A stretch of 64,000 nt of DNA from NCBI RefSeq assembly GCF_004354985.1, contig NZ_SMSK01000016.1, positions 62,001 to 126,000 on the forward strand, written 5' to 3'. The translations under genes and the position numbers were made by a program. The DNA is from Segetibacter sp. 3557_3 (GTDB taxonomy: Bacteria; Bacteroidota; Bacteroidia; Chitinophagales; Chitinophagaceae). Below the pieces are notes generated by a model. That model was not told where the DNA came from. It ran no database searches and saw only the letters and a program-made list of their open reading frames with translations. Positions 1,704-45,845 of the stretch are shown one piece after another; positions within the stretch are counted from its first letter, which is position 1; every line of letters begins with the position of its first letter.

Positions 1704-2576
1704 ATTGGCGAATTAGGGGATTGCGGATTGGCGGATTGTTTTCTCACCGTGGAGCGTGTTGGGTGCGAGTTGATCAGTTGTGTAATGAGGTATTAAGGTA
1801 TTGGGTATTGAGGTATTGGGGAAGTTAGTTGATATGTTGATAAGTTGATTAGTTGATAAGTTGATCAGGTGATAGGGGCATTTCAGAGCTTGCATTGTTT
1901 ATGCAGTATACATCAACTTGTCGTGAGCGTTCTTTTTCATTTTACATTTTTCATTTTTCATTCTTTAGCCGCAGAGAACGGGAGAAGCAGAGATTTGCGC
2001 AGAGGGTGCGAGTTGATAGATTAGGTATTAAGGGATTGGGTATTGAGGAAGTCAGTTGATAGGTTGATTAGTTGATTAGTTGATAAGTTGGGTAGTGAGT
2101 TGATCAGGTGATAGGGGCATTTCAAAGCTTGCATTGTTTATGCAGTATACATCAACATGTCGTGAGCGTTCTTTTTCATTTTACATTTTTCATTTTGCAT
2201 TTTACCGCAGAGAACGGGAGAAGCAGAGATTTGCGCAGAGGGTGCGAGTTGATGGATTAGGTATTGAGGTATTGAGGAAGTCAGTTGATAAGTTGGGTAT
2301 TTAGGTATTAAGGTATTGGGTATTGAGGTATTGGTGGTGCGAGTCGATAAGTTGGGTATTTAGGTAATAAGGTATTGGGTATTGAGGAAGTTAATACATT
2401 GATGTAGTTGGTGGCCGGATCTTAGATCTTGCATTTACCCGTGCAGTACATATCAACTTGTCGTGAGCGTTCTTTTGCATTCTACATTTTTCATTTTGCA
2501 TTATCCATTCTATCCATCCGCTAATCCGGAATCCGCTAATCCGCAATCCAATACCTTTGCCGTTTATTGCACTGAT
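1704..2576. repeat. Composite intergenic array of 7-8 nt repeats, about 2.5 tandem long units
   Basis: The gap between the TlpA-like gene and the DEAD-box helicase has no believable gene. It starts just after the stop codon with GCGGATT-type repeats, continues with GGTATTG and GTTGATNN repeats (period close to 8), then a unique-looking core containing TCGTGAGCG (at 1921, 2160 and 2461), then CATTTTNA repeats, then a CCGCAGAGAACGGGAGAAGC block (1969 and 2205). The first two long units are 239 bp apart; the third is partial and diverged. The last 60 bp before the helicase consist of AATCCGC, the reverse complement of GCGGATT. Confidence 0.9.
2552..2559 (+). promoter_or_regulatory. Bacteroidota -7 promoter element of the helicase gene
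   Basis: TACCTTTG matches the TAnnTTTG -7 consensus of the Bacteroidota primary sigma factor and lies 17 bases ahead of the ATG at 2577. No TTTG box sits 19-21 bases upstream; that position is occupied by AATCCGC repeats. Confidence 0.45.
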
Positions 2577-3905
2577 ATGAACTTCAAGGATCTTAACCTG
2601 AACAAATACTTACTGAGCGCGCTGGCAGACCTTGGTTATACTACCCCAACCACTATCCAGGGGAAGGTGTTTTCAGTGGTGATGAGTGGTGCCGACGTTT
2701 GTGGCATCGCACAAACCGGTACGGGTAAAACACTGGCCTACTTACTTCCTTTGTTAAATATGTGGAAGTATTCGAAAGAAAAAAACCCGCAGATCCTGGT
2801 GATTGTACCAACCCGTGAACTTGTTGCACAGGTTGTTGAGGCAGTGAAAAAATTAAGCACCTACCTAAGTCTGGATGTCATCGGTGTATATGGTGGCACA
2901 AACATCAATACGCAAAAGCTCGAACTAGAAAACGGACTGGATGTGTTGGTTGCTACACCCGGGCGCTTGTACGACCTTGCTGTTGCCGGTGCTTTCAAGA
3001 TAAAAGGGATTAAAAAGGTGGTGATCGATGAGGTGGATGAAATGCTCAACCTTGGCTTCCGGCCGCAGCTCCGCAATATACTCGACCTGCTTCCCCAGGC
3101 CAGGCAAAACCTCTTGTTTTCGGCAACACTGATCGAGGAAGTAGAAGAACTGATGAACGCTTATTTCGATAACCCGGTAAAGATTGAAGCTGCACCGGCT
3201 GGTACACCCGTCGAAAACATCGACCAGGTTGTTTACGAGGTTCCAAACTTCTATACCAAGGTGAACCTATTGAAGCTCCTCCTTGCTGAAGACGGTACCA
3301 TGACGAAGGTGCTTGTTTTTGCAGCTACAAAAAAACTAGCAGACGACCTGTTTGAACAGCTCGAACCTTCCTACCCGGGTGCAGCCGGTGTCATCCATTC
3401 CAACAAAGAACAAAACCATCGTTTTAATACCGTAAAGCAGTTTAAAGAAGGAACGTATAAGTTCATCATTGCAACCGATGTTGTTGCGCGCGGTATCGAC
3501 ATTGCGGAGGTTACCCATGTCATCAACTTCGACGTTCCTCAAGTGCCGGAAAACTATATTCATCGCATTGGGAGAACCGGCCGTGCAGATAAAAAAGGTA
3601 TTTCAATTACGTTCGTAACCGAAAAGGAACAGGAGCCACGTCAGGCAATTGAATCGTTGATGAACTTTAAGATACCAGTTACCCCGCTACCCGCAGATCT
3701 TGAAATTTCCTCCGAGCTGACAGAAGATGAGGTACCAAAGGTCTATATGAAAGAGATCCAGGTGAAGGTGCCGAAGAAAGAACAGCGGGGTGCTTCGTTT
3801 CATGAGCGTTCCGCGAAGAACAGTAAGACAAACAAGAAAGTTAGCCGTCGCGACCAGATGAAAAAGAAATATGGAAAGCCGATTACCCGGCGGGGGAAGA
3901 AGTAG
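2577..3905 (+). CDS. DEAD-box ATP-dependent RNA helicase (DEVD variant)
   Basis: 442-residue RNA helicase of superfamily 2. Motifs in order: AQTGTGKT (45-52, motif I), PTREL (78-82, Ia), TPGR (127-130, Ib), DEVD (151-154, motif II), FSAT (181-184, III; usually SAT), ARGID (V) and HRIGRTGR (329-336, VI). The tail from about 395 is rich in Lys and Arg, as in RhlE/CsdA-type helicases that act on rRNA or mRNA structure. Start choice: the frame is open back to 2463, but the upstream part is repeat DNA; Met 2577 lies just behind a promoter-like box and begins with the usual FKDLNLN segment. Oddity: motif II is DEVD instead of DEAD; the catalytic D-E-x-D residues are kept, so activity is expected. 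Exact subfamily not assigned. Confidence 0.93.
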   Translation: MNFKDLNLNKYLLSALADLGYTTPTTIQGKVFSVVMSGADVCGIAQTGTGKTLAYLLPLLNMWKYSKEKNPQILVIVPTRELVAQVVEAVKKLSTYLSLDVIGVYGGTNINTQKLELENGLDVLVATPGRLYDLAVAGAFKIKGIKKVVIDEVDEMLNLGFRPQLRNILDLLPQARQNLLFSATLIEEVEELMNAYFDNPVKIEAAPAGTPVENIDQVVYEVPNFYTKVNLLKLLLAEDGTMTKVLVFAATKKLADDLFEQLEPSYPGAAGVIHSNKEQNHRFNTVKQFKEGTYKFIIATDVVARGIDIAEVTHVINFDVPQVPENYIHRIGRTGRADKKGISITFVTEKEQEPRQAIESLMNFKIPVTPLPADLEISSELTEDEVPKVYMKEIQVKVPKKEQRGASFHERSAKNSKTNKKVSRRDQMKKKYGKPITRRGKK

Positions 3906-4629
3906 GGAATTCGCGAATTGCGGATTGTCGAATGGCGGATTGAGGTATTGGGTAGTTGATAGGTTGATAAGTTGATGGGTTGATTGGTTGATAGTTGAGT
4001 TGTTAAATGGTTCGTAGTGGATCCAACTGGTTACTTGAGAACTACCGGGTTAATGTAGTGGAATGGGAATCATATCTTCAATCCAGTTCACAACTATCCT
4101 AACATAATCCATTCAGTTCAGTGCATCCCTGTTCCGGGATTCCTGCCGGGGATCAATCCCTGGTATCCATCTTATCCGCGTCATCCGTGTTCCATACTGT
4201 CCCAGGAGCCACGGGCCCAAATTGAATCCAATCGATCCATCCCATCCCTGTCACCCGCGTCCACTATCCTCCGGGAGCAGACAACGCCCGCATATCCCTA
4301 TAATCCATCTCATCCCTGTCATCCGTGTTCCACTATTCTCCAGGAGCAGCCAACAACAGCATATCCAATTCATCCATCTCATCCGTGTTCCATACTGTCC
4401 CACGAGCCCGGGGCTCAGATGAATCCAATTGATCCATTTCGTCCGTGTTCCACTATCCTCCGGGAGCAGCCAACGCCCGCATATCCCTATAATCCATCCC
4501 ATCCCTGTCATCCGTGTTCCACTATTCTCCAGGAGCAGCCAACGCCAGCATATCCAATTCATCCATCTCATCCCTGTCATCCGTGTTCCATACTATTCCA
4601 TTGTGCTGGTTGTAGTATCTTTAGTCACT
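3906..4629. repeat. Composite intergenic array: GCGGATT, GTTGATNN and ATCCATCN repeats
   Basis: Starting after the helicase stop are GCGGATT repeats, one GGTATTG block and about eight GTTGATNN repeats (to about 4000). From about 4085 the array changes to a C-rich family built from ATCCATC, TCATCCCT and GTCATCCG steps of about 8 nt. The segment from 4223 to about 4419 is repeated from 4420 to about 4600 (offset 197 bp), including the interspersed phrase CTCCGGGAGCAG / CTCCAGGAGCAG. Open frames through it are side effects of the periodic sequence. Confidence 0.88.
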
Positions 4630-4851
4630 ATGGCCAAGGACGAAGACTTTTACATCACCTATAAAGGCAAACAACTCCGGGTTTCACCGGTGAGCAACGA
4701 AGGCAACATCTATTTTGTGGTGCATTTACAACCACCGATAATCATAGCGGAAAGTATGGTCGGTGAGTCGTGGTTTTGGTATGAAGCGGGTAAGGGTGAA
4801 ACACCCGAAGCTGCGGAGCTTGGTGCACTAATTGAAGATGCGGATGTTTAA
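4630..4851 (+). CDS. Small hypothetical protein (73 aa)
   Basis: Short acidic protein starting MAKDEDFYITYKGKQLRV, with alternating hydrophobic residues typical of a small beta-sheet fold and an acidic, Ala/Glu-rich C-terminus. No signal peptide or membrane segment. The start at 4630 is chosen because the frame upstream is only the translated repeat array. It ends 136 bases before the next gene on the same strand. I do not recognise a family; the composition looks like a real cytoplasmic protein rather than a chance frame. Confidence 0.6.
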   Translation: MAKDEDFYITYKGKQLRVSPVSNEGNIYFVVHLQPPIIIAESMVGESWFWYEAGKGETPEAAELGALIEDADV

Positions 4852-4987
4852 TCAGGATAACACACTTGTTGGCGCCGTGTCCTTGTGCTGGGGTTGAATT
4901 TACCTGTGTTTGGCACTACTAACAACATCTTTAGCGTAAGTGATTATACGCTGATTGTTTTCAATATATTTATCGCAAATAACAGTT

Positions 4988-5791
4988 ATGAAAAGGCGGT
5001 TTTTTGTAAAGGCATCCATGTTGTCCGGCTTGTTGGCCCCTGTTTCATCAGTAGTGTCGAAGGCAGCTGAATTTGAAGCTGCCCCGGCAAAAGTTGCTCC
5101 TGAATATTACGAGTTTAGGGTTTACACGCTAAAGGATGCTACCCAGCAGAAGTTGGTTGAGGACTACTTTCAGCAGGCCGCGATCCCTGCATTAAATCGT
5201 ATGGGGGTGAAAAATGTTGGTGTTTTTACCGAGCAAAAACCTGAAGGACAAACTAAGCTTTATGCGGTGATCCCATATGCTTCGGTAAAGGATTACGCAA
5301 AAGTTGTGGAGCAGTTGTCGGCCGACAAGAAGTACCAGCAGGCTGGGGCAAGTTACCTTGAGGCACCCTCAACTACACCCGCCTACGAGCGCATACAAAG
5401 TTCTTTTATGAAGGCGTTTGCCGGTATGCCCAGGCTCCAGGTCCCCGCAAATAAGCCGCGTATGTTCGAATTACGACGCTACGAAAGCTCGGGTGAGGCT
5501 GCAGGTAAAAAGAAGATTGATATGTTTGATAACCAGGGTGAGATCGCCATATTCAAAAGGGTAGGACTTACCCCGGTGTTTTTTGGGGAAACCATTATCG
5601 GCGAGTTTATGCCCAACCTGACTTACCTGCTCACCTTTGCTGATATGGAAGACCATGATAAAAGCTGGAAGGCATTTGGCGGCGATCCTGAATGGAAGCG
5701 GATCAGAGCAATTCCCGGCTATGAAGACGCGAAAATCGTCAGCCGTATCACCCGCACGTTTTTAGTGCCCACCAGCTTCTCGCAAATATGA
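4988..5791 (+). CDS. NIPSNAP family protein, exported
   Basis: 267-residue protein with two related ferredoxin-like (dimeric alpha-beta barrel) units: the first begins at EFRVYTLKD, the second at MFELRRYES. This double arrangement and the motifs are characteristic of the NIPSNAP family, whose bacterial members have no settled function. The N-terminus MKRRFFVKAS followed by a hydrophobic stretch ending near SKAAE is a signal peptide and looks like a Tat signal (RRFF). That would place the protein in the periplasm. The start at 4988 gives the complete signal; the frame is open slightly further upstream, to 4955. No partner gene is evident; it is followed by a repeat array and a convergent gene. 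Confidence 0.85.
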   Translation: MKRRFFVKASMLSGLLAPVSSVVSKAAEFEAAPAKVAPEYYEFRVYTLKDATQQKLVEDYFQQAAIPALNRMGVKNVGVFTEQKPEGQTKLYAVIPYASVKDYAKVVEQLSADKKYQQAGASYLEAPSTTPAYERIQSSFMKAFAGMPRLQVPANKPRMFELRRYESSGEAAGKKKIDMFDNQGEIAIFKRVGLTPVFFGETIIGEFMPNLTYLLTFADMEDHDKSWKAFGGDPEWKRIRAIPGYEDAKIVSRITRTFLVPTSFSQI

Positions 5792-6027
5792 GTAAAAAGT
5801 CAAAAGTAAAAAGTCGAAAGGGTAAGTGCGATAAATTAAAAATGTAAAATGTAAAATGAAAAAATAGGTTCCCGACAAGTTTGAAGTCTTTGCTCTTATA
5901 AATATTTACAGTACAGCTTTCAGCTTTTCAACCTATCTACTGATCAACCAATCAACTGATCTAGCTCAATACCTCAATACCATTCTTCAATCCGCAATTT
6001 GCCAATCCGTAATCCGCAAATTTCACC
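5792..6027. repeat. Composite intergenic array between convergent genes
   Basis: Read on the minus strand, away from the stop of the amine oxidase gene, the order is GCGGATT repeats, GGTATTGAG, GTTGATTG repeats, a core with ACTTGTCGGGAACC, then CATTTTAC repeats. The end touching the NIPSNAP gene has GTAAAAAGTC-type repeats of period 7 instead. The order matches the 1.7-2.5 kb array. Confidence 0.85.
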
Positions 6028-7671
6028 CTAAACAATAGCTTCCCGGCTCCGCACAGCTTTCAGAATGCCCTGAGCTGCCAGGCGACCGGTTTCGGCGGCG
6101 CCATTCATAAAGCCCTGGTAGTAACTGCTGCAATGTTCTCCGGCGAAGAAAAAGTTACCAACCGGCTTTGCTTCGGCACCGCGAATGGTGGTATAATGCC
6201 CGACCTTATAACAGGCATAACTTCCTTTTGTGAAAGGATGAGTTGGCCAGTGCATGCGTTTTACATTGCCATTGTGTGCACTTTTACATCCCGGCCACAT
6301 TTCCTCAAGTTGATTGAGGTATTTGACTGCCTGGGACTCAGGGGTACCATCGCCCATTGCAAGACCAGGGTTTCCTCCACCATAAACCGTAAATCCACCT
6401 GCAGATCCCTGCTGACCCTGTGAGTTGTCCCACCCGGTCTGGATTGCTTTATTGGTGAACACGTATCCGCTTTGGCCATACTTACGCCAAACCCGCTTAT
6501 TAAAGCCGAGCATCAGTTTTGAATTATGACCATAAGCCAGCGTATTGATTGCATTTAATTTCCAGGAGGGAAGTGCAACCGCTAGCTCAACCTCTCTCAA
6601 CATACTAAATGGTAGGGTAGATACTATCATGTCGGCGTTGACAGAGGTGGTTCCGCTTCCGCAGTTGAAGTAAAGGGTATAGCCGGAGGCACCTTCTTTG
6701 ATTTTTACCAACCGGTGTTCCAGTGATACATTTGCTTTCACTTCTTCGTACAGTGCATTGGTCAGCCTTTGGTTGCCGCCGACGATTTTAAAACGTTCAT
6801 CGCTGCTGCCGAACAATTCAAATCCATTAGCCGTATTGGGTGAAAACAGGTATAAAAAGTTTATTGAAGATTGAACGTCCGCTTCAAGGCCATATTCTGT
6901 TACATAAGCAATTTCAATTCCTTTCCTGATAAAGCCAGTCATGCCGATCAAGTCCAGGTAAGCCTTTATACTCATCAGGTCAAACCTGAGGGTAGCAGCA
7001 TTGTGGTCATCGTAGGTCATTACGTTAGGTAATGATTTTATGTCTGCTTTAATGCGTGCAGCATATGGCTGAAAGGCCCTGATCACTTCTGCTTCCGTAT
7101 AAAACTTTCCATCGATCACAAAAGTATCGCGTTGAAATTCGAGTTCTTCCGCAGTCATCGTATCAATAAGCGGCAGGTTAAACTCATGGCAAAGTTTAAG
7201 CATGTCCTTGTGCTCGGTGTCGATAAACTCTCCGCCGAGTTCTGTGGTAAGACCAGGTGCCATCAGGTCTTTTTTTGAAAACATCCGGCCACCGGCCCTG
7301 TTTGAGCCTTCGAAGATAGTCGTGTTGTAACCAGACTTCTTCAATTGATAAGCACAGTTTAGCCCGGCCATACCTGCACCAATGATCACGATTTTGGGTT
7401 GAGATGGTTTTGCCGACCCTATTGATTGATCCGTTATTGAAGGGGTATCAGAAGGAGAAAAATCACTGAGTTTTTTACACGAGTTAAACACACCGGCACC
7501 ACTGATTGCTACACCGGCCTTTACCATGTCGCCAATGAAGCGTCTCCTGGGCAATGCATTTGCCCTTTGTTGAGCAATTACTTCTTCAACGGGTGGACCG
7601 TCCTTGCTGTTTTGTAATGATAAGTGAAAGGCACGACGTAATGTGTTGAGCAGGGGAGACCGGCTTTGCAT
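6028..7671 (-). CDS. Flavin-containing amine oxidase (L-amino-acid/monoamine oxidase type)
   Basis: 547-residue FAD enzyme of the amine oxidase family (PF01593 type). The FAD-binding beta-alpha-beta motif IVIIGAGMAGL is at about 94-104, followed by the RAGGRM motif, and the C-terminal FAD contact is FFFAGEHCS near residue 509. Expected reaction: oxidative deamination of an amine or amino acid with release of H2O2 and ammonia. The N-terminus is long: a twin-arginine-like signal RRRFIGDM (42-49) is followed by a hydrophobic segment and Cys 65 (FNSCKK), so export by Tat, possibly as a lipoprotein, is likely. The chosen start gives about 40 residues before the twin arginines, which is common in Bacteroidota members. 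The substrate cannot be read from sequence. Confidence 0.88.
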   Translation of the reverse strand: MQSRSPLLNTLRRAFHLSLQNSKDGPPVEEVIAQQRANALPRRRFIGDMVKAGVAISGAGVFNSCKKLSDFSPSDTPSITDQSIGSAKPSQPKIVIIGAGMAGLNCAYQLKKSGYNTTIFEGSNRAGGRMFSKKDLMAPGLTTELGGEFIDTEHKDMLKLCHEFNLPLIDTMTAEELEFQRDTFVIDGKFYTEAEVIRAFQPYAARIKADIKSLPNVMTYDDHNAATLRFDLMSIKAYLDLIGMTGFIRKGIEIAYVTEYGLEADVQSSINFLYLFSPNTANGFELFGSSDERFKIVGGNQRLTNALYEEVKANVSLEHRLVKIKEGASGYTLYFNCGSGTTSVNADMIVSTLPFSMLREVELAVALPSWKLNAINTLAYGHNSKLMLGFNKRVWRKYGQSGYVFTNKAIQTGWDNSQGQQGSAGGFTVYGGGNPGLAMGDGTPESQAVKYLNQLEEMWPGCKSAHNGNVKRMHWPTHPFTKGSYACYKVGHYTTIRGAEAKPVGNFFFAGEHCSSYYQGFMNGAAETGRLAAQGILKAVRSREAIV

Positions 7672-8075
7672 GGCAGTTTAGTTTGTTAGTTTTGATTTGA
7701 GGTATGGACCTGGTTATTGATGTTCGATAATAGACTTACTAAATAAACGTGGGCAAACGAGTAAGCCAAAAGGCTATGCTAAGCATAGTGTTTGTCAATA
7801 CACACGCTTATTGCAACAGCTTCGTGATGATTGCTGGTTTGGTGAACACGTAAGGCTTCATTGTTTTGCTAAATACCGTTAGTATGCTTCGTTTATTGAT
7901 CCAAAAATAGGTTTGAGTATTCCAGGCTGCAATCACATGTTCATGTGTTTTGCATACTAAGATTAGCAGGACTTACAGCAAACATGCACCGGCATAACTA
8001 ATGGATTATAAAACAGCATGAGCTTGTGGAGATAGATGTGCTGACTAGGGCCAGTCCGGCGTTAGAACAAACAGC
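7672..8075. other. Intergenic, no gene seen; two short palindromes
   Basis: This 404-base gap precedes the amine oxidase gene and follows the helicase gene (both minus strand). I see no coding frame. Two perfect short palindromes, CTATGCT-A-AGCATAG (7774-7788) and CACATG-TT-CATGTG (7933-7946), could be operators or weak terminators. No clear -33/-7 promoter was found. Confidence 0.5.
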
Positions 8076-10973: not shown

Positions 10974-11176
10974 ATGCTGCTTTGTATTGAATGAAAGGGA
11001 GGTTTAGCTCCATTGCCGGTGTTGCTTATACAAAGACCAGTAATTAAAGCTTATTGCGGCTTCCAGTGAATCCGGCATTCGACTCGTAACTAGTTGAAAC
11101 GGAAAAACGTTTTCACTGCCAAAAAGCGTTGAGTCCGCAACGGGATCGTTCACTGATCTTATCGCACCACCGGCAT

Positions 11177-11228
11177 TGCCCTACACCACTCCCCAATTCA
11201 CAATGGCCGGAAAGTGGTGTAAGGGGCA
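11177..11228. repeat. Long imperfect inverted repeat
   Basis: Left arm 11177-11190 (TGCCCTACACCACT) pairs with right arm 11213-11228 (AGTGGTGTAAGGGGCA) around a 22-base loop; eight pairs next to the loop are perfect. It lies 36 bases beyond the stop of the DUF2911 gene (minus strand) and upstream of nothing on the plus strand, so it may be a terminator or transcript-stabilising hairpin, although no T-run follows. Confidence 0.5.
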
Positions 11229-11263
11229 GGCGGTTTATTGGTGTTAGCTTGTCAATGTTCTCT

Positions 11264-12097: not shown

Positions 12098-12988
12098 ATA
12101 GTGGATGAGAATTTAGGTGCTAAAGTTAGGGGATTACGGACTGCGGATTGGAGATAAACCGCAGAGAATGGGAGAGGCGGAGTTTGCGCAGAGGTAGAAA
12201 GAGAATGGCGGATTGCGGATTAGCGGATTTGCGGATTGGGGGGAGTTGATTGTTGACAGGTTGATCAGTTGATCAGTTGATTGGTTGAAAAGTTGATAGG
12301 TTGATTGGTTGAAAAGTTGATTGGTTGATTAGTTGAAAAGTTGATTGGTTGATTAGTTGAAAAGTTGATTGGTTGATCAGTTGATCAGTTGACAGGTTGA
12401 CTCCTGAGTTTATATAACTAGAGCACGACATTCCAAGTTGACCGGGAACTCTTTTTAAATTTTTCATTTGTCATTCTGCATTGTTCACACCCTGAGAACG
12501 GGAGGAGCAGAGATTGGCAATTGGGTATACAGGTATTAAGGGAGGGTTGATCAGTTGACAGGTTGATCAGTTGATCAGTTGACCGGTTGACTTCGGAGTT
12601 TATACAAGTAGAGCACGAAACTCCAAGTTGACCGGGAACTCTTTTTGAATTTTGCATTTTGCATTTTCTCTCCGCAGAGAACAAGAGAGGCGGAGGTGGC
12701 GCTGAAGAAGTTAAGAAGTTGATCAGTGCACGGCGAAACTATTAATTCAGCGCGCTAGACCTTCGGTGGGTCTGAATCCCTTTTTCACATTACATTTCTC
12801 GTTTGCATTTTAAACTCCGTTTTATTCAGCTGCATAAACCGGTACAAGTACAAGGGAGTGACACAACGATGCCGAATAAAGATCCTCCCGTTTGCGCCCA
12901 AAAAATAATCTGCTTAACTAAATAAAGTCAACATTCACATTTACCTCGCGCAGTAGTTCATCATTCATATTTCATCGTTCATCGTTAA
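12098..12988. repeat. Composite intergenic array with long GTTGATNN tract
   Basis: The array starts near the DUF2911 gene start with GCGGATT repeats and a CCGCAGAGAATGGGAGAGGC block (about 12160), then GTTGATTG / GTTGAAAA repeats of exact period 8 (about 12245-12410). Two related core units follow: each has GAGTTTATA, then AGAGCACGA, then CAAGTTGACCGGGAACTC and CATTTT repeats (about 12410-12480 and 12590-12670). The segment from about 12830 to 12988 is non-repetitive and holds nothing I recognise. Confidence 0.88.
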
Positions 12989-19613: not shown

Positions 19614-19647
19614 CCTCCTGCACTAACACTTTTAACTCCCTACAATT

Positions 19648-21243: not shown

Positions 21244-21315
21244 ACCTTTAAGCACAACTTGATTACTGAGGTCAGGGATCACTCAACAAATAATTACAAA
21301 CATCAATCACTTCTT

Positions 21316-21938
21316 ATGAATCGTTTTTTGCTCTTCGTCACCGCCCTGTTAACAGTGGTACTAAACTCCTGCTCCGAAAAGGAGTACGAATGGGAAACTA
21401 TACGTATACCGCCGTTCCTATCGTGGAGGTAAATACCGCAAAATCTGCACTGCCAACTTACGCAGCGGCAAAAACATCTTTCTTCAATCTGAAAGATCCC
21501 AATGTAGCCAATCAGCAATTCGAGTTTACGTTGAACTGGGAGGGTTTCGGGAGAAGAACGGTGACATCAATCGACGTATATGTGAGCTTCAACAAAAAAG
21601 AAGCGAGTGCGCCAGCATACCCGATTGTTATCAGTACCCCCGGCAATGAATATCCCAACATCTTTCAGTTCCCGTTGCCCAGCATTGTGCGCTCTACCGA
21701 CAAGTTCTACGAAACGGCTACAACCTTTCCCAAAAAATATACATTTACAGCCGCACAGTTAGCAGCTCTTGTCGGGGTAAGTTTGAATGGGATCGAAGTA
21801 AATGATTATATCTTATTCAAGTTTATGGTAACGCTTGAAGATGGGCATAAAATCGCAACATTTTTCAACAACGTTTGCGATGAGTCGAGAGGAGAACCCG
21901 GTGATTGCAGGGTAGGGGTACGCTTCAAAAATCAATAA
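21316..21938 (+). pseudogene. Accessory lipoprotein of the SusCD locus, split by an apparent -1 frameshift
   Basis: The frame from the ATG at 21316 encodes a good lipoprotein signal (MNRFLLFVTALLTVVLNSCS, lipid Cys at 19) and then EKEYEWE, but stops at 21432. The rest of the protein continues in the frame of 21390-21938 (NYTYTAVPIVEVN and 160 more residues). One additional A in the GGGAAAC at 21392-21398 would join the two parts smoothly as WENYTYT. Such lipoproteins, commonly the third gene of Bacteroidota SusCD operons, have a beta-sandwich fold and probably bind ligand at the surface. The shift may be a real mutation, an assembly error or, less likely, recoding. Without the first frame the product would lack export. 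Confidence 0.75.
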
Positions 21939-21997
21939 TCCTGCTTAAACTACCATCAACTCTATAACATGCTTCCATAATCATTTATCTGAAATCT

Positions 21998-24900
21998 ATG
22001 AAGATGAACAATACCGATATGAACAACAACAAACACTCAATTTATAAAGCGCACATGAGAAAAATCCTACGCCTTGCTTTATGCTTCACCGGAATGCTTC
22101 ACCTTGTTTACTCACCGGCCGGTCCCTTATATGCACAGGACTCCAATGGGCCGGCGGCAGATAAAAAGGTGAGCACTTCCGCAGGTGCACCGCCCGCTGC
22201 GAATGCGAATGCATCCGTTCTAAAATCCATGCAGTGGCGACTGATTGGTCCATACAGGGGAGGCCGTTCCGTTGCCGTAGCAGGTCACCCAACTGAAAAG
22301 AATACTTTTTACATGGGTACAACCGGTGGTGGTGTATGGAAAACAACCGACGGCGGTAAAGCCTGGCAGAATGTTTCCGATGGGTTCTTTAAAACGGGAT
22401 CCGTTGGTGCAGTTGCCGTTTCCACATCCAATCCCGAGGTGATTTATGTAGGCATGGGCGAGCATACCCTTCGCGGAAATACCTCGCACGGCGATGGTGT
22501 TTACAAGTCGACAAATGGTGGTAAAACATGGGACTATACGGGGCTCAAAAACACCTATCATATCGGTTCTGTAATAGTCCATCCAAGGAACCCCGACATC
22601 GTTTACGTTGCAGCGATTGGCCATGCATTTGGTGCAAACGAGGATCGTGGTGTATTCCGTACCAAAGATGGCGGTAAAACGTGGAAAAAGGTTCTGTACA
22701 AGAGTCCTGATGTGGGTGCCATTGATATGAGTATGGATCCAACAAATCCCGATGTATTGTATGCCTCTACATTCGAGTTCCGCAGGTTCGAGTGGGGTGT
22801 TCGCAGTTCAGGACCCGGTGCCGGCATCCATAAGTCGATGGATGGTGGCGAAACGTGGACCGACATTACGCTTAACCCGGGGCTTCCAACCGGTAAAAAC
22901 CGCGGTAGAATAGGTCTTGCTGTATCGCCCGCAAAACCCGATCGTGTTTGGGCGATCATCGAAGCAGAAAACAACCAGACAGGCATCTACCGTACCGACG
23001 ATTCGGGTGCACACTGGCAATTGGTTAGCCAGTTTGCCGAAGTACATCAACGCCCCTGGTATTACCATAGTCTTACCGCCGATCCCAAAGACAGCTCTAC
23101 GCTTTGGGTAATGAATATTGGTTTTTGGAAGTCGACCGATGGTGGTAAGAAGTTTACCAGTGTGGCAACACCACACGGCGACAATCATCAACTATGGATC
23201 GATCCTGCCGATAACACAAGGATGATCGAAGCCAACGACGGAGGTGCCACCGTAACCTTTGATGGCGGCAAATCGTGGTCATCGATTTATAACCAGCCCA
23301 CAGCTCAAATGTATCATGTGATCGCCGACAATAAGTTCCCTTACCGGGTGTATGGCTCACAGCAGGATAACTCCACCATTTCCGTTCCAATGCGTTCCGA
23401 TAATGGAGCAATATATCCTGATGACCTGTATTCCATTGGTGGTGGTGAGTCCGGTTACATAGCGTTTGATAAAAATAATCCTAAACTCATCTTCGCTGCA
23501 AACCATCACTGGATCACAAAGCTCAATATGGAGTCTAACCAGATCTCCGATGTGTCTGTTGTTCCGGAGGATAATTATGGCTACGGTTCGGCCGACATCA
23601 AGTACCGTTTTCAATGGACCTTTCCCATCATTGTATCGCCGCACAACAGCAACGTGCTTTATGCTACATCCTCGTACGTGCATCGTTCACTCGACCAGGG
23701 CAACAGCTGGGAGGTGATCAGTCCGAACCTCACACGATCCGAACCACGTACGCTTGAAAAAACACCTACCCGCGATAACCCGGAGATTGGCCCTGACTGG
23801 GGACCGGTGGTAAGGGACAATACCGGGGTTGAATGGTACGGAACCATCTTTGCATTTGCCGAGTCGCCAATAAAGGCCGGTGTGCTTTGGTCGGGTTCCG
23901 ACGATGGTTTTATCCAGTTGTCGCTCGACAACGGTAAAACATGGAAAAACGTTTCACCCAAAGGTATTCCTGAGTTTTCGCGTATGAGTATTATTGATGC
24001 TTCGAGCCACGATCCCGCGACTGCGTATGTTGCCGCTATTCGTTATAAGCAAGACGACTTTCATCCATACATCTACAAAACAAGCGACTATGGTAAAACC
24101 TGGAAGAAGATCACCAACGGTATTCCTGAAGATGAGTTTACCCGCGTAGTTCGTGAAGACCCTAAAACTAAAGGTTTGTTATATGCCGGTACAGAAAAAG
24201 GAATTTATGTATCGTTCAACGATGGTGAAAACTGGGAGTCGTTACAAATGAATCTGCCCGTTGTACCCATTCACGACCTTGCGATACAGGATAACAGCCT
24301 TGTTGCAGCAACCCATGGCCGTTCGTTCTGGGTGCTCGATAACCTGTCTACATTAGGGCAAATGAATGGGGATGTACAAAATGCCCCCGTGTTCTTATTC
24401 AAACCCGCACCTACCGTCAGGTACCGCGGAGGCGGCAAGCGGTCGGTGATTGGTTTTGAAGGTGCGGCACCACAGAACGTAGGTCAGAACCCGGCGTCGG
24501 GTGTTACCGTGCAATACTATCTAAAAGAGAAACCGAGGGGAGAGGTTTCCATGGAGTTTTTGGATGCATCGGGTAAAGTGATAAAGTCGTACAAAACCAA
24601 ACCCGACACTACAGCAAGTATCTCCGATTCGGCTGTAAAGGCAAGAGAGGTGGAAATGCGTGTGCCCTTGAGGCGGGGCGCCCGTCGCGATCTTTTCCTT
24701 ACCGCACAACAGGGTGGAAATAAGTTTGTATGGGACGACATGCGTTACCAGGATCCCGAGGCACTGGAGGGTGTGGTTACACACGGTGCTGCAAGAGGGC
24801 CACTTATCATACCCGGTAAATACAAGGTTCGCCTCACCGTTGATGGCAAAACCATCACCGAGGACTTCGAGGTGGTGAAAGATCCGCGCATCCCGATGAC

Positions 24901-25297
24901 CGCCGCTGAGTTCAAAGAACAATATGAACTGTTGTTGAAAATAGGCGATAAGGTGACTGCCCTTCGCACAGCAGTAAAAGACATTCGTAAGATGAGGTTA
25001 CAGCTGGATAGCACCAAAGCCGATAAAGCTACAGATGCTTTACGCGAAAGGTTGTTGCGCATCGAAGACGAACTGATACAGGTTAAGGCAAAGGCAAACC
25101 AGGACCTTACTAACTATCCGGTTAAGCTGGATACCAAGCTCATATCGCTTGCGAACTTTGTTGAGTCGGGCGATGTAAAACCTGCAATGCAGCATAAGCA
25201 AAAGTTCGTTGAACTTTCCGAAAAACTCACCATGCAATTACAAAAGCTGGATGAGGTAAAAAAGGTGATGCCTGCAAGACCCAAACGTGGCTTCTGA
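21998..25297 (+). CDS. VPS10/sortilin-like BNR-repeat propeller protein, secreted
   Basis: 1099 residues. Repeated Asp-box/BNR motifs of the type KTTDGGKAWQNV, KSTNGGKTWDY, RTKDGGKTWKKV and LDNGKTWKNV run from about 75 to 770 and indicate two multi-bladed beta-propellers, as in sortilin/VPS10-like and xyloglucanase-like proteins. A C-terminal region (about 850-1090) has a beta domain followed by a helical segment rich in Lys and Leu. The signal peptide begins best at the internal Met of 22055 (MRKILRLALCFTG); the ATG at 21998 adds 19 polar residues. Predicted location: cell surface or periplasm. It follows the SusCD genes by 59 bases and probably belongs to the same transcript. Enzymatic activity is not evident. 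Confidence 0.85.
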   Translation: MKMNNTDMNNNKHSIYKAHMRKILRLALCFTGMLHLVYSPAGPLYAQDSNGPAADKKVSTSAGAPPAANANASVLKSMQWRLIGPYRGGRSVAVAGHPTEKNTFYMGTTGGGVWKTTDGGKAWQNVSDGFFKTGSVGAVAVSTSNPEVIYVGMGEHTLRGNTSHGDGVYKSTNGGKTWDYTGLKNTYHIGSVIVHPRNPDIVYVAAIGHAFGANEDRGVFRTKDGGKTWKKVLYKSPDVGAIDMSMDPTNPDVLYASTFEFRRFEWGVRSSGPGAGIHKSMDGGETWTDITLNPGLPTGKNRGRIGLAVSPAKPDRVWAIIEAENNQTGIYRTDDSGAHWQLVSQFAEVHQRPWYYHSLTADPKDSSTLWVMNIGFWKSTDGGKKFTSVATPHGDNHQLWIDPADNTRMIEANDGGATVTFDGGKSWSSIYNQPTAQMYHVIADNKFPYRVYGSQQDNSTISVPMRSDNGAIYPDDLYSIGGGESGYIAFDKNNPKLIFAANHHWITKLNMESNQISDVSVVPEDNYGYGSADIKYRFQWTFPIIVSPHNSNVLYATSSYVHRSLDQGNSWEVISPNLTRSEPRTLEKTPTRDNPEIGPDWGPVVRDNTGVEWYGTIFAFAESPIKAGVLWSGSDDGFIQLSLDNGKTWKNVSPKGIPEFSRMSIIDASSHDPATAYVAAIRYKQDDFHPYIYKTSDYGKTWKKITNGIPEDEFTRVVREDPKTKGLLYAGTEKGIYVSFNDGENWESLQMNLPVVPIHDLAIQDNSLVAATHGRSFWVLDNLSTLGQMNGDVQNAPVFLFKPAPTVRYRGGGKRSVIGFEGAAPQNVGQNPASGVTVQYYLKEKPRGEVSMEFLDASGKVIKSYKTKPDTTASISDSAVKAREVEMRVPLRRGARRDLFLTAQQGGNKFVWDDMRYQDPEALEGVVTHGAARGPLIIPGKYKVRLTVDGKTITEDFEVVKDPRIPMTAAEFKEQYELLLKIGDKVTALRTAVKDIRKMRLQLDSTKADKATDALRERLLRIEDELIQVKAKANQDLTNYPVKLDTKLISLANFVESGDVKPAMQHKQKFVELSEKLTMQLQKLDEVKKVMPARPKRGF

Positions 25298-25365
25298 TTA
25301 CTGCAGCCTGGGCTGCCAATGCCCTGATCACATTAGCAATGATTCTACCAATTTAGTTTTTAATT

Positions 25366-25475
25366 TGGGCGTTCCCCCCAACTTGGGTTGGGGGTCGGGC
25401 TTTTCACTGCAAGTCCTCGTGGCCACGCCTTAAAGCGTGGCCACTCCGGGCTTTCCGTTTCAATCCCTAACGCAA
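25366..25475. repeat. Structured GC-rich element with two perfect hairpins
   Basis: This stands out in base composition. Hairpin 1: CCCCCAAC (25375-25382), loop TTGG, GTTGGGGG (25387-25394). Hairpin 2: GTGGCCACGC (25419-25428), loop CTTAAA, GCGTGGCCAC (25435-25444). Between and after them are the related phrases TCGGGCTTTTCACTGCAAGTCC and CCGGGCTTTCCGTTTCAATCCC. The layout resembles dispersed structured repeats (REP-like) that I recall from many Bacteroidota intergenic regions, but I cannot confirm the family here. Confidence 0.65.
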
Positions 25476-25587
25476 CGTTTGTGCACAACATTACCTCGCG
25501 ATATTTCAGACGCGTTTACGTAGAACCATTGTTCTCCATAGAACCGGTTCGTTAAGCTTCTTTGTAAACGTAGCTGCGCAGTGTTAT

Positions 25588-25656
25588 GTCGCACAAGAGT
25601 GCGACGCAACGATGCTACATTGGAAATACTATCGCCTGGCCCAAAAAGTTACTAAG
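25588..25656. repeat. Dispersed intergenic repeat, copy 1 (GTGCGACGCAACGATG type)
   Basis: A perfect hairpin GTCGCAC-AAGA-GTGCGAC (25588-25605) is followed by GCAACGATGCTAC and, 26 bases on, by TGGCCCAAAAA. The same sequence order occurs at 59749-59803, and a variant with a longer GC-rich insert is at 35243-35314. Confidence 0.6.
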
Positions 25657-25696
25657 CCGTGACGGCAATATTCTCTAATCTAAAATTACCAGGTCA

Positions 25697-28462
25697 ATGA
25701 TCCGACTGTTATGTTTTGTGGTTCTCCTTGTTGTTGTGCAGCTGTCATCTTCTATCCGGGCACAGGATATTCCTTCTCCTAAATCGCATTTTGGTTTCGA
25801 CATCGGCGACGATTATAAACTTGCGACCTATACACAAACAGAGGCTTATTTCAAAAAACTTGCTGAAGCATCCGATCGCATCAAACTGGTCGAGATTGGC
25901 AAAACCGAAGAAGGGCGCCATCAATATATGTTGATCGTATCTGCACCCGAAACGTTGAAGAACCTCGATCATTTTAAAAGCATTTCACAAAAGCTTGCGC
26001 ATGCCGATCAACTTACCGATGCACAGGCCGGGGATCTTGCCGCAGAAGGTAAGGCCGTGGTATGGATCGATGGCGGTTTGCACGCAACGGAGGTTGTGGG
26101 TATACACCAGCTCATCGAAACCATTTACCAGGTGGTTAGCCGCAACGACCGTGAGACTGGGAACATTCTTAAAAATACCATCATCCTTTTTACTCACGCT
26201 AATCCCGATGGCCAGGAGCTGGTATCGAACTGGTACATGAGTCAACCCGACGTTAAAAAACGAAACACCAATATTCCACGGCTTTACCAGAAGTATATCG
26301 GACACGATAATAACCGCGACTTCTTTATGATGAACATGAAGGAAACCCAAAACATCACTCGCCAGCAATATGTAGAGTGGATCCCGCAGATCGTTTACAA
26401 CCATCACCAAACAGGTCCCCCCGGGTCCGTTGTTGCAGGTCCTCCATACCGCGATCCATTTAACTATGCATTCGATCCCCTTATCATCACGAGTTTAGAT
26501 GAGGTGGGCGCGGCTATGAATAACCGGTTGAACAGGGAAGGGAAACCAGGCTATACGCAACGAGCAGGTTCGGTGTTTTCTACCTGGTGGAACGGTGGCC
26601 TTCGCACGACCCCTTACTTCCACAACATGATCGGCCTGCTTACCGAGATCATTGGCAATCCAACCCCGTCAAAGATCCCGCTTGTGCCCGGCCGGTTAAT
26701 TCCCAATGGTGCAACGCCCAACCCAATCAAGCCGCAGGACTGGCATTTCAGGCAATCGATCGACTACTCGGTTTCATTGAACTATGCTGTGCTAAACTAT
26801 GCGGTAAACAATCGTGAGAACCTGCTTTATGGTATTTATAAAATGGGAAAAAATGCAATCGAAAAGGGAAGTAAAGACCACTGGTCATTTTCTCCAAAAT
26901 ACATCGATTCTATCGCCGGTGCTTTCAGGAAAGATCCGAAGAACAGCAAGGCTGGTGAAGGCACCGTTGCGGCAAGGTTAAGCCTGATGGACACCATTCC
27001 TGCAAGGTATTACGACAGTGTTTATAGCGATCGTACATTCCGCGACCCCAGGGCATATATCCTATCATCTGCACAACCTGATTTTCCAACCGCAACCCAG
27101 TTTATCAATGCACTCATCAGGTCGGGGGTGCAGGTACATACTGCCACCAGCGCGTTTAATGTCGCTGGCAAAATTTATCCTACGGGTTCATACGTGGTGA
27201 AAACAGCACAGGCGTTTCGTCCGCACATTCTCGACATGTTTGAGCCGCAGGATCATCCGAACGACTTTTTGTATCCCGGTGGCCCGCCCGTTCGCCCTTA
27301 TGACGCAGCCGGGTGGACGCTCGCCTATACCATGGGTGTACAATTCGACCGGGTGCTTGATGGTTTTGATGCACCTCTCCAAGCAATCGCTTACGGCGAG
27401 CTTCAAACACCACAGGGCAGGGTAGATGCTGGATCAGGCGCAGCGGGTTACCTGCTCGATTCGCGGGTGAACCGGGCATTTGTTGTAGTTAACGATCTGC
27501 TGGCAGGCGGGGCACCTGTATATCGCCTTGCTGCTGCTGAGGGTAAGATGAAAGCCGGGGATTTCTTTGTTCCTGCCGGCGGAAAAGCTGCGGCACTGCT
27601 TCAGAAATCGGCTGCAGGTTCTGGCATCAGCGTTACAGCTGTTTCAAAACGGCCTGCAGTTCAACTCAAAAAAGTGTCGCCATTGCGGATAGCGCTTTGG
27701 GATGTTTATGGCGGTTCGATGCCATCGGGTTGGGTGCGGTGGCTGATGGAGCAGTACCACTTTGCTGCACAAGTTGTTTATGCGCCGGAAATCAACACTG
27801 CAAATCTGGCCGCTAAATACGATGTTATTGTTTTTGTTACAGGTGCTATACCCCCATTAGGCAGGGGAGAACCAGGAAGAGGCAACTACAACCGCATGCC
27901 CAATCCGCAGGAAGTGCCGGAGGAATTTCGCCCGCACCTGGGACGATTAAATGCGGATACCACTATTCCGCAGTTGCAGAAATTTTTAACTGCGGGCGGA
28001 AGGATCGTCACCATAGGCAGCAGTACAAACCTGGCTTACCATCTAAAGCTTCCTGTTCGCCATGCACTCACCGAAGTAGTTGCAGGTGAAGAACGCACCC
28101 TGCCGGGGGAGAAATATTATATTCCCGGAAGCATTTTACGGGCAAGTATCGATAGCGTGCAGATGCCAGCCTGGGGAATGGCTTCAGCAGGCGACATATA
28201 TTTCGACGCGAGTCCTGTATTTAAGGTGGCGCCGGAGAGCATTGCCAATGGCAGTATTAAACCGCTGATGTGGTTCAGCAGCAACAAGCCGCTGCGGAGT
28301 GGCTGGGCCTGGGGACAAACGTATTTGCAGGATGGCATAGCGGCATTCTCCGCGAAAGTGGGTAAGGGAACCCTGTATGCATTTAGTCCGGAGATTACCT
28401 TTCGCGGCCAGACACATGGAACATTCAAGCTGTTGTTTAACCAGCTGTATGGATTGGAGTGA
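25697..28462 (+). CDS. M14-family zinc carboxypeptidase, secreted
   Basis: 921 residues. A signal peptide (1 to about 22, ending SSIRAQ) is followed by an M14 catalytic domain: the zinc-binding HxxE motif is in GGLHATE (about 130-135), and the later histidines are in NHHQTGPPG (about 234). The C-terminal half (from about 480) contains a class-I glutamine-amidotransferase-like fold segment (RIALWDVYGGSMPSGW) and a long stretch found in large Bacteroidota M14 relatives. Function: removal of C-terminal residues from peptides outside the cytoplasm. It lies 399 bases after the propeller gene, separated by two structured elements, so it may have its own promoter; context suggests joint action with the SusCD system in peptide use. 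Confidence 0.88.
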   Translation: MIRLLCFVVLLVVVQLSSSIRAQDIPSPKSHFGFDIGDDYKLATYTQTEAYFKKLAEASDRIKLVEIGKTEEGRHQYMLIVSAPETLKNLDHFKSISQKLAHADQLTDAQAGDLAAEGKAVVWIDGGLHATEVVGIHQLIETIYQVVSRNDRETGNILKNTIILFTHANPDGQELVSNWYMSQPDVKKRNTNIPRLYQKYIGHDNNRDFFMMNMKETQNITRQQYVEWIPQIVYNHHQTGPPGSVVAGPPYRDPFNYAFDPLIITSLDEVGAAMNNRLNREGKPGYTQRAGSVFSTWWNGGLRTTPYFHNMIGLLTEIIGNPTPSKIPLVPGRLIPNGATPNPIKPQDWHFRQSIDYSVSLNYAVLNYAVNNRENLLYGIYKMGKNAIEKGSKDHWSFSPKYIDSIAGAFRKDPKNSKAGEGTVAARLSLMDTIPARYYDSVYSDRTFRDPRAYILSSAQPDFPTATQFINALIRSGVQVHTATSAFNVAGKIYPTGSYVVKTAQAFRPHILDMFEPQDHPNDFLYPGGPPVRPYDAAGWTLAYTMGVQFDRVLDGFDAPLQAIAYGELQTPQGRVDAGSGAAGYLLDSRVNRAFVVVNDLLAGGAPVYRLAAAEGKMKAGDFFVPAGGKAAALLQKSAAGSGISVTAVSKRPAVQLKKVSPLRIALWDVYGGSMPSGWVRWLMEQYHFAAQVVYAPEINTANLAAKYDVIVFVTGAIPPLGRGEPGRGNYNRMPNPQEVPEEFRPHLGRLNADTTIPQLQKFLTAGGRIVTIGSSTNLAYHLKLPVRHALTEVVAGEERTLPGEKYYIPGSILRASIDSVQMPAWGMASAGDIYFDASPVFKVAPESIANGSIKPLMWFSSNKPLRSGWAWGQTYLQDGIAAFSAKVGKGTLYAFSPEITFRGQTHGTFKLLFNQLYGLE

Positions 28463-28977
28463 GGTGAGTCAAAAGTCAAAATGCAAAATGTAAAATTAAA
28501 AATGCAAAACTTGTCCTGTGAAACTCGCGGTTTGTGCGAAAATGTTTTCGGATGACTGATTGATCAGTTGATCAGTTGATAAGTTTAGTGGTAGAGAAGG
28601 TGATTGGTTGAGAGGTTGACAAGTTGAGAAGTTGACTGGTTGAAATGTTGATAGGTTGATCAGTTGAGAGGTTGAATAGTTGATAAGTTGACTAATTGAT
28701 AAGCTGACTGGTTGAGAAGTTGACTAGTTAAAAAGTTGACTAGTTGAGATGTTGATTACTTAACCATTAGCTGTGAAGGAACCATTTTTAATTTTGCATT
28801 CTCGAGTCCCCCTTTGGCGCAGGAACGCTTTTTAATTGTACATTTTAAATTTTTTAATTTGGATCGCAACCCTCCTTCCCCGCAGTAACCCTTTTTTAAT
28901 TTTACATTTTTAATTTTGCATTTGTTCGAGTACCTCAACCCGCGCAGGAATCCTTTTTAATTTTTAATTGCGACTAT
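28463..28977. repeat. Composite intergenic array with GTTGANNN tract and three repeated cores
   Basis: After the M14 stop there is a short CAAAATGN block, then a long GTTGANNN array of period 8 (about 28560-28760). Then come four related cores: GGAACCATTTTTAATTTT, GGAACGCTTTTTAATTGT, GTAACCCTTTTTTAATTT and GGAATCCTTTTTAATTTT, each preceded by a short C-rich segment containing GCGCAG, CCGCAG or similar. The array ends at the stop of the polymerase-like gene on the opposite strand. Confidence 0.88.
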
Positions 28978-41944: not shown

Positions 41945-41968
41945 AAACACGGTATCCAGGTTTAAAAT

Positions 41969-45819: not shown

Positions 45820-45845
45820 CCTTCTTATAGGGGTAAGGAAACAGG

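Follow-up and report, generated by a model that had tools for sequence, protein, structure and literature searches.

How unrelated seven- and eight-letter words come to follow one another in the gaps between genes is the question raised by a window of 64,000 nucleotides from Segetibacter sp. 3557_3, the whole stretch of DNA from which this analysis started. To our knowledge, there is no agreed cause for intergenic repeats with a period of 7-8 nt. The sequence-only reading had attributed such a period to five gaps, and in all five the top lag of the same-base autocorrelation is 7, 8 or 9 (z between 4.9 and 10.4 with 200 first-order shuffles as reference); in 16 other gaps taken from the window, lag 7 or 8 always stays below z 3, with a maximum of 2.6 in gap 41945-42634. 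A period near 8 describes most of the gaps, but gap 3906-4629 follows mostly period 9, and the CGCAGAG block, listed as a period-8 run of CGCAGAGA, is actually a 37-nt element. Between 29 and 64 kb, the reported absence of arrays is true of blocks with at least three units, a family-free scan finding one 49-bp segment there (45829-45877). A sample of 0.85 Mb from this genome contains 383 blocks compared with 1 in shuffled DNA, and period 7-8 lies far above its level in shuffled sequence. Most of the first sample (28 of 40 stretches) was picked at matches; 11 stretches picked without matches carry 11 periodic segments in 220 kb. The ordered intergenic short-repeat pattern is therefore confirmed as real, its words being partly variable units of 7-8 letters arranged in tandem in many gaps between genes.

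The blocks are lettered A (GCGGATT), B (GGTATTG), C (GTTGATNN), D (CATTTTN) and E (the 37-nt CGCAGAG element), and beyond these five families the analysis recognised TTTTGAC, ATGAGNN, ATGTTGN, GAGTTAAG and CACGGAT. On the forward strand of gap 1704-2576, block A (1708-1737) begins 4 bp past the gene end at 1703 and is followed by B (1789-1818), C (1828-1864), a locus-specific core ending in a T run (1865-1937), D (1938-1957) and E, the 37-nt CCGCAGAG element (1969-2005). The series then restarts with B (2024-2045), C (2055-2083), core (2084-2176), D (2177-2203) and E (2205-2241), the last having the same letters as its first copy over 37 nt, before two more B blocks (2296-2333 and 2355-2384, spanning 2296-2384) and an A block on the opposite strand near the gap end (2515-2544). 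A single 239-bp composite is present here 2.1 times in tandem, so the blocks of this gap do not count as independent. In gap 3906-4629, ordinary blocks are confined to 3913-3998 on the forward strand (A, 3913-3941; C, 3955-3998), starting 7 bp past the gene end at 3905, and the rest is mostly an ATCCGTG/CACGGAT family on the reverse strand (4181-4577), with 69- and 189-bp tandem copies and period 9 rather than 8. A compact composite occupies 5792-6017 on the reverse strand and comprises A (5989-6017), B, C, core, D (5839-5858) and F (5792-5815); its B and C were recognised by eye, with fewer than three clean units. On the forward strand, E (from 12159), A (12208-12237) and a C block of 20 units (12245-12400) make up 12159-12400, and C (12546-12590), core (12591-12647) and D (12648-12667) make up 12546-12667, followed by an E copy from 12672. 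Finally, a reverse-strand D block that runs counter to the common order (28478-28504) precedes a forward-strand series at 28607-28917, with C (28607-28691 and 28735-28755), core and D (28898-28917).

A common order of the five families had been proposed from the five gaps, and the preferred series is GCGGATT, GGTATTG, GTTGATNN, core, CATTTTN and CGCAGAG before a restart; gap 28463-28977 opens with an opposite-strand CATTTT block and obeys it only in part. In the sampled genome, adjacent blocks lie on one strand in 228 of 235 cases, and 146 of 183 transitions obey the order compared with 50% when blocks are permuted. With the order rule frozen, 19 of 26 transitions on unseen stretches obeyed it, a result matched by 29 of 20,000 permutations. 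Block order is thus non-random both in the sample and in the held-out stretches, and the claim that otherwise unrelated families share order, strand and period is supported with the held-out data included. Same-family inverted neighbours within 150 bp were absent from the first sample of this genome, and the held-out stretches contain two inverted D pairs (L269 and L271).

The internal structure of the units bears on whether the arrays are satellite-like, functionless DNA, heptamer/octamer tandem repeats that arise and lengthen through polymerase slippage and unequal exchange where gaps are under weak constraint, with the order arising from duplicated composites. In the best-measured family, GTTGANNN, each unit has five fixed and three largely free positions; across 366 middle units flanked by intact neighbours, five positions of the GTTGA family are 96-98% fixed and the commonest base reaches 67%, 52% and 49% at the next three. 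The split is blunter in families A, F and H, the A and F samples being small. Adjacent GTTGA units are identical in 13 of 308 pairs over all stretches of this genome, compared with 44.3 when permuted, and in 0 of 78 pairs (10.4 expected) in the held-out part alone, with 26 of 31 informative loci agreeing. CATTTT and ATGAG point the same way (4/34 identical neighbours vs 8.6 expected and 0/15 vs 2.5). The effect does not reach significance in B (3/12 vs 5.2, p 0.10) or in held-out D (2/10 vs 3.3, p 0.11), is not seen in F of this genome or in D of the relative G397, and is absent from the window taken alone (4/39 vs 3.6) and from the C runs of G397 (3/26 vs 2.5) and G033 (2/12 vs 1.7). GTTGA over the whole sample hence displays the reverse of the identical neighbours left by fresh slippage, such as those in GTTGAT runs of some other genomes (L082, 8/8; L097, 7/10; L080, 4/5; but L164, 4/9), and simple slippage fits poorly both with this avoidance and with the fixed/free split. 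Composite tandem copies do exist, in keeping with a satellite origin, but only 6 of the 19 gaps of at least 5 in alignments of neighbouring copies are unit multiples, a count from 10 copy pairs, some of which aligned poorly. Some relatives, G401 and G506 above all, have segments of period 7-8 made of other words, and G397 carries period-7 repeats in its own version of one orthologous gap; both also agree with satellite DNA, and 7-nt slippage was proposed earlier, by Mrazek et al. 2007 according to the available part of PMC4679880. Taken together, a satellite origin appears somewhat unlikely. For layered growth with A as the oldest block, the signs are mixed: decay is greatest in A, at 0.158 mismatches per site, but B (0.043) and C (0.057) are out of line and A has a natural G/A variant.

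The relationships among loci are informative about how the words spread. Within the sample, 44 loci draw on the same words, and unit strings common to different loci are no more frequent than a simple model gives: 42 pairs for three units (86 expected), 4 for four units (9.4 expected) and 0 for five units (1.0 expected). The zero for five-unit strings is weak on its own, as its expectation is only 1.0. Copying of unit strings between loci was rejected on this absence of excess. In the one orthologous gap compared among nine genomes, eight sister species have other sequence at the place; at 68-73% protein identity, these genomes are too diverged for insertion ends to be defined. Because the words recur without an excess of shared strings and the orthologous gap differs in sister species, a rule acting in trans is likely to lie behind the arrays.

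A non-autonomous mobile element of the REPIN or MITE type, with repeat blocks as its arms, could account for the fixed strand and order, as well as for the inverted pairs that flank a short core in G033 and G397. Homologous copies with a shared interior were not found, however: 36 arrays supplied 62 cores, of which 21 match none of the others, cores are mostly unrelated across arrays, and strong matches are few (L057/L058, L049 with the window core at 5859, and two L036 arrays). Y1 transposase genes, with 3 matches in this genome and matches in 16 of 19 genomes, are more numerous in the 7 array carriers than in the 11 others (mean 4.0 vs 1.7, p 0.022, uncorrected for kinship, with fragments counted and G398 set aside), but array-free genomes carry them too, and the one Y1 gene inspected (L288) shows no block over its 3.3 kb. 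Plasmid and phage records contain nothing that matches the first array (487 bp), and a plasmid or phage origin was rejected on that basis. A mobile element is thus an unlikely source of the arrays.

Sixty-two of the 64 multi-block arrays stay at or below 30% overlap with any called gene, divergent gaps are under-used (4/58 vs 64/257, p 0.002), and an A side that faces a stop codon lies at a median of 10 bp from it, with 24 of 33 cases within 24 bp. Many cores finish in a run of Ts, and by eye at least one of them (L276, 13503) looks like an intrinsic terminator, features that would suit 3' untranslated regions acting as structured RNA or as transcription terminators, as would the strong hairpins of relatives (7 units in G033, mean z -7.5; 5 units in G397, -3.6 and -5.9 on the two strands). 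The earlier suggestion of a structured untranslated element is nevertheless not supported in this genome, where 48 composites are no more stably folded than their shuffles (mean z -0.19 on one strand and +0.21 on the other) and the window has no Rfam match at gathering scores, and structured RNA was rejected for Segetibacter sp. 3557_3; a role of this kind is highly improbable overall. Rfam searches of seven other stretches returned two tRNAs only. The arrays have a mean GC skew of +0.44 in the forward sense, positive in 73 of 80, and the resulting C-rich, G-poor and unstructured strand recalls Rho utilisation sites. In co-directional gaps, though, the arrays follow transcription in 18 cases and oppose it in 13 (p 0.47), the C-rich strand shows no preference for the sense of the upstream gene, and the rut descriptor in the accessible part of PMC9160355 places YC dimers 9-13 nt apart, not 7-8. 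With neither orientation nor spacing fitting, Rho sites were rejected and are scarcely credible.

Templated synthesis by a DRT10- or telomerase-like reverse transcriptase followed by chromosomal integration has a precedent in the DRT10 system, which appends 9-nt tandem repeats to cDNA according to the part of PMC12632851 available. The unit strings, however, do not derive from one template, RVT_1 (PF00078) has no match in the genome of Segetibacter sp. 3557_3, and its counts among the 19 genomes searched (matches in 11) are alike in array carriers and others (p 0.56). A reverse transcriptase as maker was accordingly rejected for the present genome, where the idea is nearly refuted, a past or very divergent enzyme being its remaining form; as a whole it is extremely unlikely.

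Part of this vocabulary is found in relatives too, frequently arranged as inverted pairs, and in G033 and G397 such pairs surround a short core, all 7 multi-block arrays of G033 having opposite-strand pairs. Polarity outward from the core may be a candidate rule, drawn from these relatives' arrays. No array of G397 or G033 has two different A-E families on one strand, as the order test needs, and the order and neighbour rules belong to the genome of Segetibacter sp. 3557_3, the only one in which they have been demonstrated. Among 147 members of the family, C and D occur together in 4 genomes against 1.8 expected (p 0.08). A collection-wide scan for D-E junctions returned 14 stretches; by eye, only L153, from a Chitinophagaceae MAG, resembles a real composite, six (L148, L151, L152, L155, L156 and L159) have D-like or E-like words, and the other seven resemble chance matches. 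The three-unit GTTGAT pattern is absent from five of nine sister species (G396, G399, G400, G402 and G403), and any function of the arrays is therefore not essential to the genus.

The nearest described case is that of the paired octamers of Geobacter metallireducens. The portion of PMC2700814 available describes tandem degenerate octamers or heptamers in opposite-strand pairs at variable distance, in three classes (1, GTTGCTYN; 2, TCTCCGTS[Y]; 3, MTYCTGA), as proposed sites for a global regulator (IHF/HU), binding itself being only proposed. The present arrays likewise consist of degenerate tandem octamers, but opposite-strand pairs, present in G033, are uncommon in Segetibacter sp. 3557_3. 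The Geobacter sites, as reported in that portion, comprise 2-5 units, mostly from a single family (four sites count as both class 1 and class 2), whereas the present arrays reach 23 units and contain several families in a preferred order, with few inverted pairs in this genome. A separate multicopy set there, four TWGTTGAY octamers with two per strand, is nearly the GTTGATNN family, and the same text places it among sequences possibly giving short RNAs rather than among regulator sites. TAACTGA and mixed heptamer repeats form intergenic arrays in Beggiatoaceae, cyanobacteria and Bacteroidetes, and the available text of PMC4679880 reports mixed heptamers in some Bacteroidetes, sporadic occurrence among relatives, and, at the corresponding place in relatives, shorter gaps free of repeats. 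As described there, those arrays repeat a single heptamer directly and, in the main genome studied, lie mostly near start codons, while the arrays of Segetibacter sp. 3557_3 have degenerate units of several families in order and often adjoin stop codons. In the P6b loop of the Nostoc tRNA-Leu intron, according to the part of PMC3488679 available, degenerate heptanucleotide repeats pair into a hairpin, like the relatives' inverted pairs, although they lie inside an intron, in two motif classes and with no composite order. The GGGAATC and GGGGA(C/T)T arrays of Xanthomonas and Nostoc, in the portion of PMC4692102 available, are also intergenic heptamers that vary in length and sequence between close relatives, but they represent one G-rich family per organism and were studied as G-quadruplex formers.

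The arrays are probably under a constraint exerted in trans. The leading reading, a tentative one, regards them as recognition sites for at least one sequence-specific nucleic-acid-binding factor of nucleoid or mobile-element type. In its favour count the fixed and free positions, the avoidance of identical neighbours, the lack of surplus shared strings, the order and strand in held-out stretches, the placement outside genes and near stop codons, the tandem composites and the inverted pairs of G033 and G397. Under such recognition, the arrays would be dispersed intergenic runs of short tandem sites that lengthen when several units at a time, or whole composites, are duplicated locally, and single-unit perfect duplicates would be lost again through slippage. 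The A end would often lie beside a stop codon because arrays would be tolerated only where space is untranslated and free of promoters, and the order from A through B, C and core to D and E would be inherited from an early arrangement around locus-specific cores. No candidate factor was found, and more than 10 word families would need many factors or one of loose specificity; both points count against a binding factor, as do the sister species that lack the GTTGAT pattern, the lack of a significant orientation in co-directional gaps and the cases in which neighbour avoidance is absent. A broader proposal, rather unlikely in its full form, is a trans-acting system by which half-fixed, half-free words are written or maintained as arrays at many loci under a grammar independent of local sequence (preferred family order, one strand, differing neighbours), with a vocabulary partly carried across genera and partly replaced from species to species. 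Intergenic repeats of 7-8 nt are known in cyanobacteria, Beggiatoaceae, Geobacter and others. Read directly from the organism's own genome as words, order, strand, no excess of shared strings and, in the GTTGA family, the fixed/free split and neighbour avoidance, the rules measured in Segetibacter sp. 3557_3 help separate slippage from trans-acting explanations and provide numbers that any mechanism must meet.

The genome that hosts the window (6.75 Mb in 35 contigs) holds 134 places matching the first array, the array itself counted. Sixty stretches were sampled from it, comprising a first set of 40 (28 at such places and 12 elsewhere) and 20 held-out stretches, picked at pattern matches and unread beforehand, which together with the window amounts to 1.24 Mb, or 18.3% of the genome. 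The sequence-only reading had described five window gaps (1704-2576, 3906-4629, 5792-6027, 12098-12988 and 28463-28977) as filled by short-period repeats, and this was borne out, with lag 7, 8 or 9 as the top period in every one (z 4.9-10.4 against first-order shuffles); lags 7 and 8 stayed below z 3 throughout the 16 other window gaps listed. The short period is also far more common than in model sequence: a block finder, whose unit patterns were drawn up after some of the first-sample stretches had been read, returned 383 blocks of at least three units in the first 852 kb compared with 1 in one order-3 Markov version. A scan independent of the repeat families yielded 93 segments of period 7/8, compared with 13 of period 5/6, 10 of 9/10 and 2 of 10/11, along with 44 at the double period 13/14. 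Periodic segments reached a density of 5 per 100 kb in 11 stretches picked without matches.

The blocks belong to families A (GCGGATT), B (GGTATTG), C (GTTGATNN, the GTTGA family), D (CATTTTN), E (CGCAGAG) and F (TTTTGAC), and, of 235 adjacent pairs of differing family in the first sample, 228 shared a strand. Of 183 transitions across 52 arrays, 146 (80%) followed the cycle A>B>C>D>E>A, in which families may be skipped, compared with 50% when blocks were permuted within arrays (0 of 5000 permutations reached the observed value). Because this rule was chosen after the first-sample data had been seen, it was frozen and then applied to the held-out stretches, where 19 of 26 transitions followed it (reached by 29 of 20,000 permutations), 10 of the 11 arrays with transitions were mostly in order and one ran against it, and 41 of 44 block pairs shared a strand; the earlier claim of a conserved block order held. 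When each array of the first sample was given a single vote, A preceded C (12:0), D (14:1) and E (12:2), B preceded D (11:0) and C (21:5), and C preceded D (13:2); the orders of A-B (8:2), D-E (10:5) and C-E (4:4) were not significant.

Within units, fixed and free positions are distinct. In the 366 cases where the units on either side were intact GTTGA, 16 bp from one another, the middle unit kept any given one of its five GTTGA positions in 96-98%, and the commonest base reached 67%, 52% and 49% at the three positions that follow. In 98 CATTTT cases, the first C was kept in 82% and the remaining fixed positions in 95-100%, while the free position was A, G or T, with C rare (2%). The split was less sharp in families A, F and ATGAG. 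Moreover, neighbouring GTTGA units avoid identity: the same free triplet occurred in 13 of 308 pairs from all stretches of this genome, compared with 44.3 after permutation within runs (0/1000), with 10/208 (27.2 expected) in the selected sample and 0/78 (10.4 expected) in the held-out one, and 26 of 31 informative loci agreed (8 further loci were uninformative); the window alone showed no avoidance for C (4/39 vs 3.6 expected). Identical neighbours also fell below expectation in this genome's CATTTT (4/34 vs 8.6; held-out D, 2/10 vs 3.3, p 0.11) and ATGAG (0/15 vs 2.5) and in TTTTGA of G397, a genome of the same genus (2/10 vs 4.7). No avoidance was seen in family F of this genome (3/4 vs 2.7 expected), in C and D of G397 or in C of G033, from another genus, and that of family B was not significant (3/12 vs 5.2 expected). 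A surplus of identity two units apart is accounted for by the neighbour avoidance (52 vs 55.4). Across 44 loci, unit strings in common showed no excess over an order-1 model, with 42 of three units (86 expected), 4 of four (9.4) and 0 of five (1.0). The best-measured family is poorly explained by simple slippage. Some other genomes do have GTTGAT runs whose neighbouring units are identical, the pattern that slippage would leave.

Between C and D lies a locus-specific core. A set of 62 cores was taken from 36 arrays: 21 matched no other and the remainder grouped mostly inside their own array; 33 cross-array matches had E <0.01, few of them strong. When ten neighbouring composite copies of at least 60% identity were aligned, gaps of 5 or more were unit multiples in 6 of 19, that is, not mainly. 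At L036 11426-16277, repeat arrays flank and separate two genes whose called proteins both start LQSFAVDGWSQPQVT, and in two of these arrays the cores agree to 91% across 45 nt.

According to a hexamer gene caller, 62 of 64 multi-block arrays overlapped called genes by at most 30%. The 58 array-bearing gaps were co-directional (37), convergent (17) or divergent (4); compared with 257 other gaps of at least 150 bp, divergent gaps were fewer (64/257, p 0.002) and convergent ones more frequent (38/257, p 0.012). The 5' (A) side faced a stop codon in 33 cases (median distance 10 bp, 24 within 24 bp) and a start codon in 17 (median 62 bp), a difference (p 0.033) that includes 15 of the 33 in convergent gaps, where a stop is obligatory. 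In co-directional gaps, 18 arrays ran with transcription and 13 against (p 0.47).

Other elements were observed in the same stretches. A dispersed element, X, consists of a T run, a GGACC-CGGC-like stretch, a gap and then TCGTTGCGTCGCACTCTTGTAC. It occurs in 35 copies in the 1.24 Mb of this genome, as well as in G397, G033 and sister species, and as an inverted pair in L202; examples are L034 8991, L041 5178, L181 11552, L202 8721/8799 and L225 1349. All 22 copies in stretches with gene calls were intergenic, 18 of 35 had a repeat block no more than 300 bp away in a sample picked at blocks, and no Rfam match was found in the scanned stretches. A second short element of similar look, GTACAAGGGAGTGACACAACGATG or its complement, is present at window 12848-12871 (approximately) and in L053, L061 and L039, adjoining a CCCGCCCGGATGAA..TTCGGACGGG hairpin in the latter two. 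An ORF at window 44065-45819 that carries long tandem repeats of the GGTTCAGG type (15, 30, 57, 72 and 180 bp) would give a low-complexity repeat protein.

Among relatives, a three-unit GTTGAT pattern matched 14 of 395 genomes of the phylum, with counts concentrated in this genome (189), G290 (49, against 39 for a reversed control) and G033 (30), and 5 of 10 in the genus, G398 by one nearly perfect run only. Of 147 genomes of the taxonomic family, 22 matched a four-unit pattern, 12 the CATTTT pattern and this genome alone the D-E junction. The gap between genes that we take to be cysZ-like and rsmI-like, from reading of their proteins, was compared in nine genomes: it spans 286 bp with an array in this genome and 109 bp with different period-7 repeats in G397, and contains a TTTTCAAA repeat in G400 and element X in G399, G402 and G403; in G395, G398 and G401 no repeat stands out. 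For a second gap, no syntenic neighbour turned up. When 20-40 kb from each of 11 further relatives was scanned without reference to the families, period-7/8 segments came out in G401 (6), G506 (3) and G400 (2, vs 5 of period 9/10), with a single one in each of G395, G398 and G399; G402, G403, G404, G405 and G408 had none. Two Desulfobulbaceae MAGs (L151 and L159) have in common AGTCATATGTGAGCATTTTTCATTTT followed by GTGACGCAGAGAACGGGC, D-E junction included. Similar words presumably occur in further phyla, judging partly from the stretches read by eye.

The suggestion of a structured untranslated element was not supported in this genome, where 48 units of the form A/B/C-core-D/F gave no folding signal (mean z -0.19 on one strand and +0.21 on the other), which speaks against structured RNA there. 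Inverted pairs of relatives gave mean z -7.5 and -7.3 (seven in G033) and -3.6 and -5.9 (five in G397), and thus the same words make hairpins in the gaps of relatives and mostly head-to-tail composites here. At least once (L201, judged by eye alone), such a hairpin directly follows a stop codon.

No machinery was identified for the arrays among the two candidates examined, RVT_1 and Y1 transposase. RVT_1 had no match in this genome, and its counts did not differ between genomes with arrays and others. Y1 transposase matches averaged 4.0 in seven carriers vs 1.7 in eleven others (p 0.022, kinship uncorrected and G398 left out), a difference that slightly raises the odds of a mobile-element reading. 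Downstream of a Y1 transposase gene, L288 (about 1840-2300) holds several palindromes resembling GCCCCGCTGGGGCAT, in either orientation, which would be in keeping with REP sequences of that gene's own.

In the portions of the literature searched, which included few subscription papers, no account of either ordered composite arrays or neighbour avoidance was found. Heptamer assemblages are described in Bacteroidetes (MacGregor 2015, PMC4679880). In Geobacter metallireducens, degenerate octamers in tandem form pairs across the two strands and have been proposed to be bound by regulators of the IHF/HU kind, and a separate multicopy set has the consensus TWGTTGAY (PMC2700814); of the cases seen in these sources, that of Geobacter metallireducens is the nearest to the arrays of this genome. 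The arrays are real, widespread within the examined part of this genome, and rule-bound.
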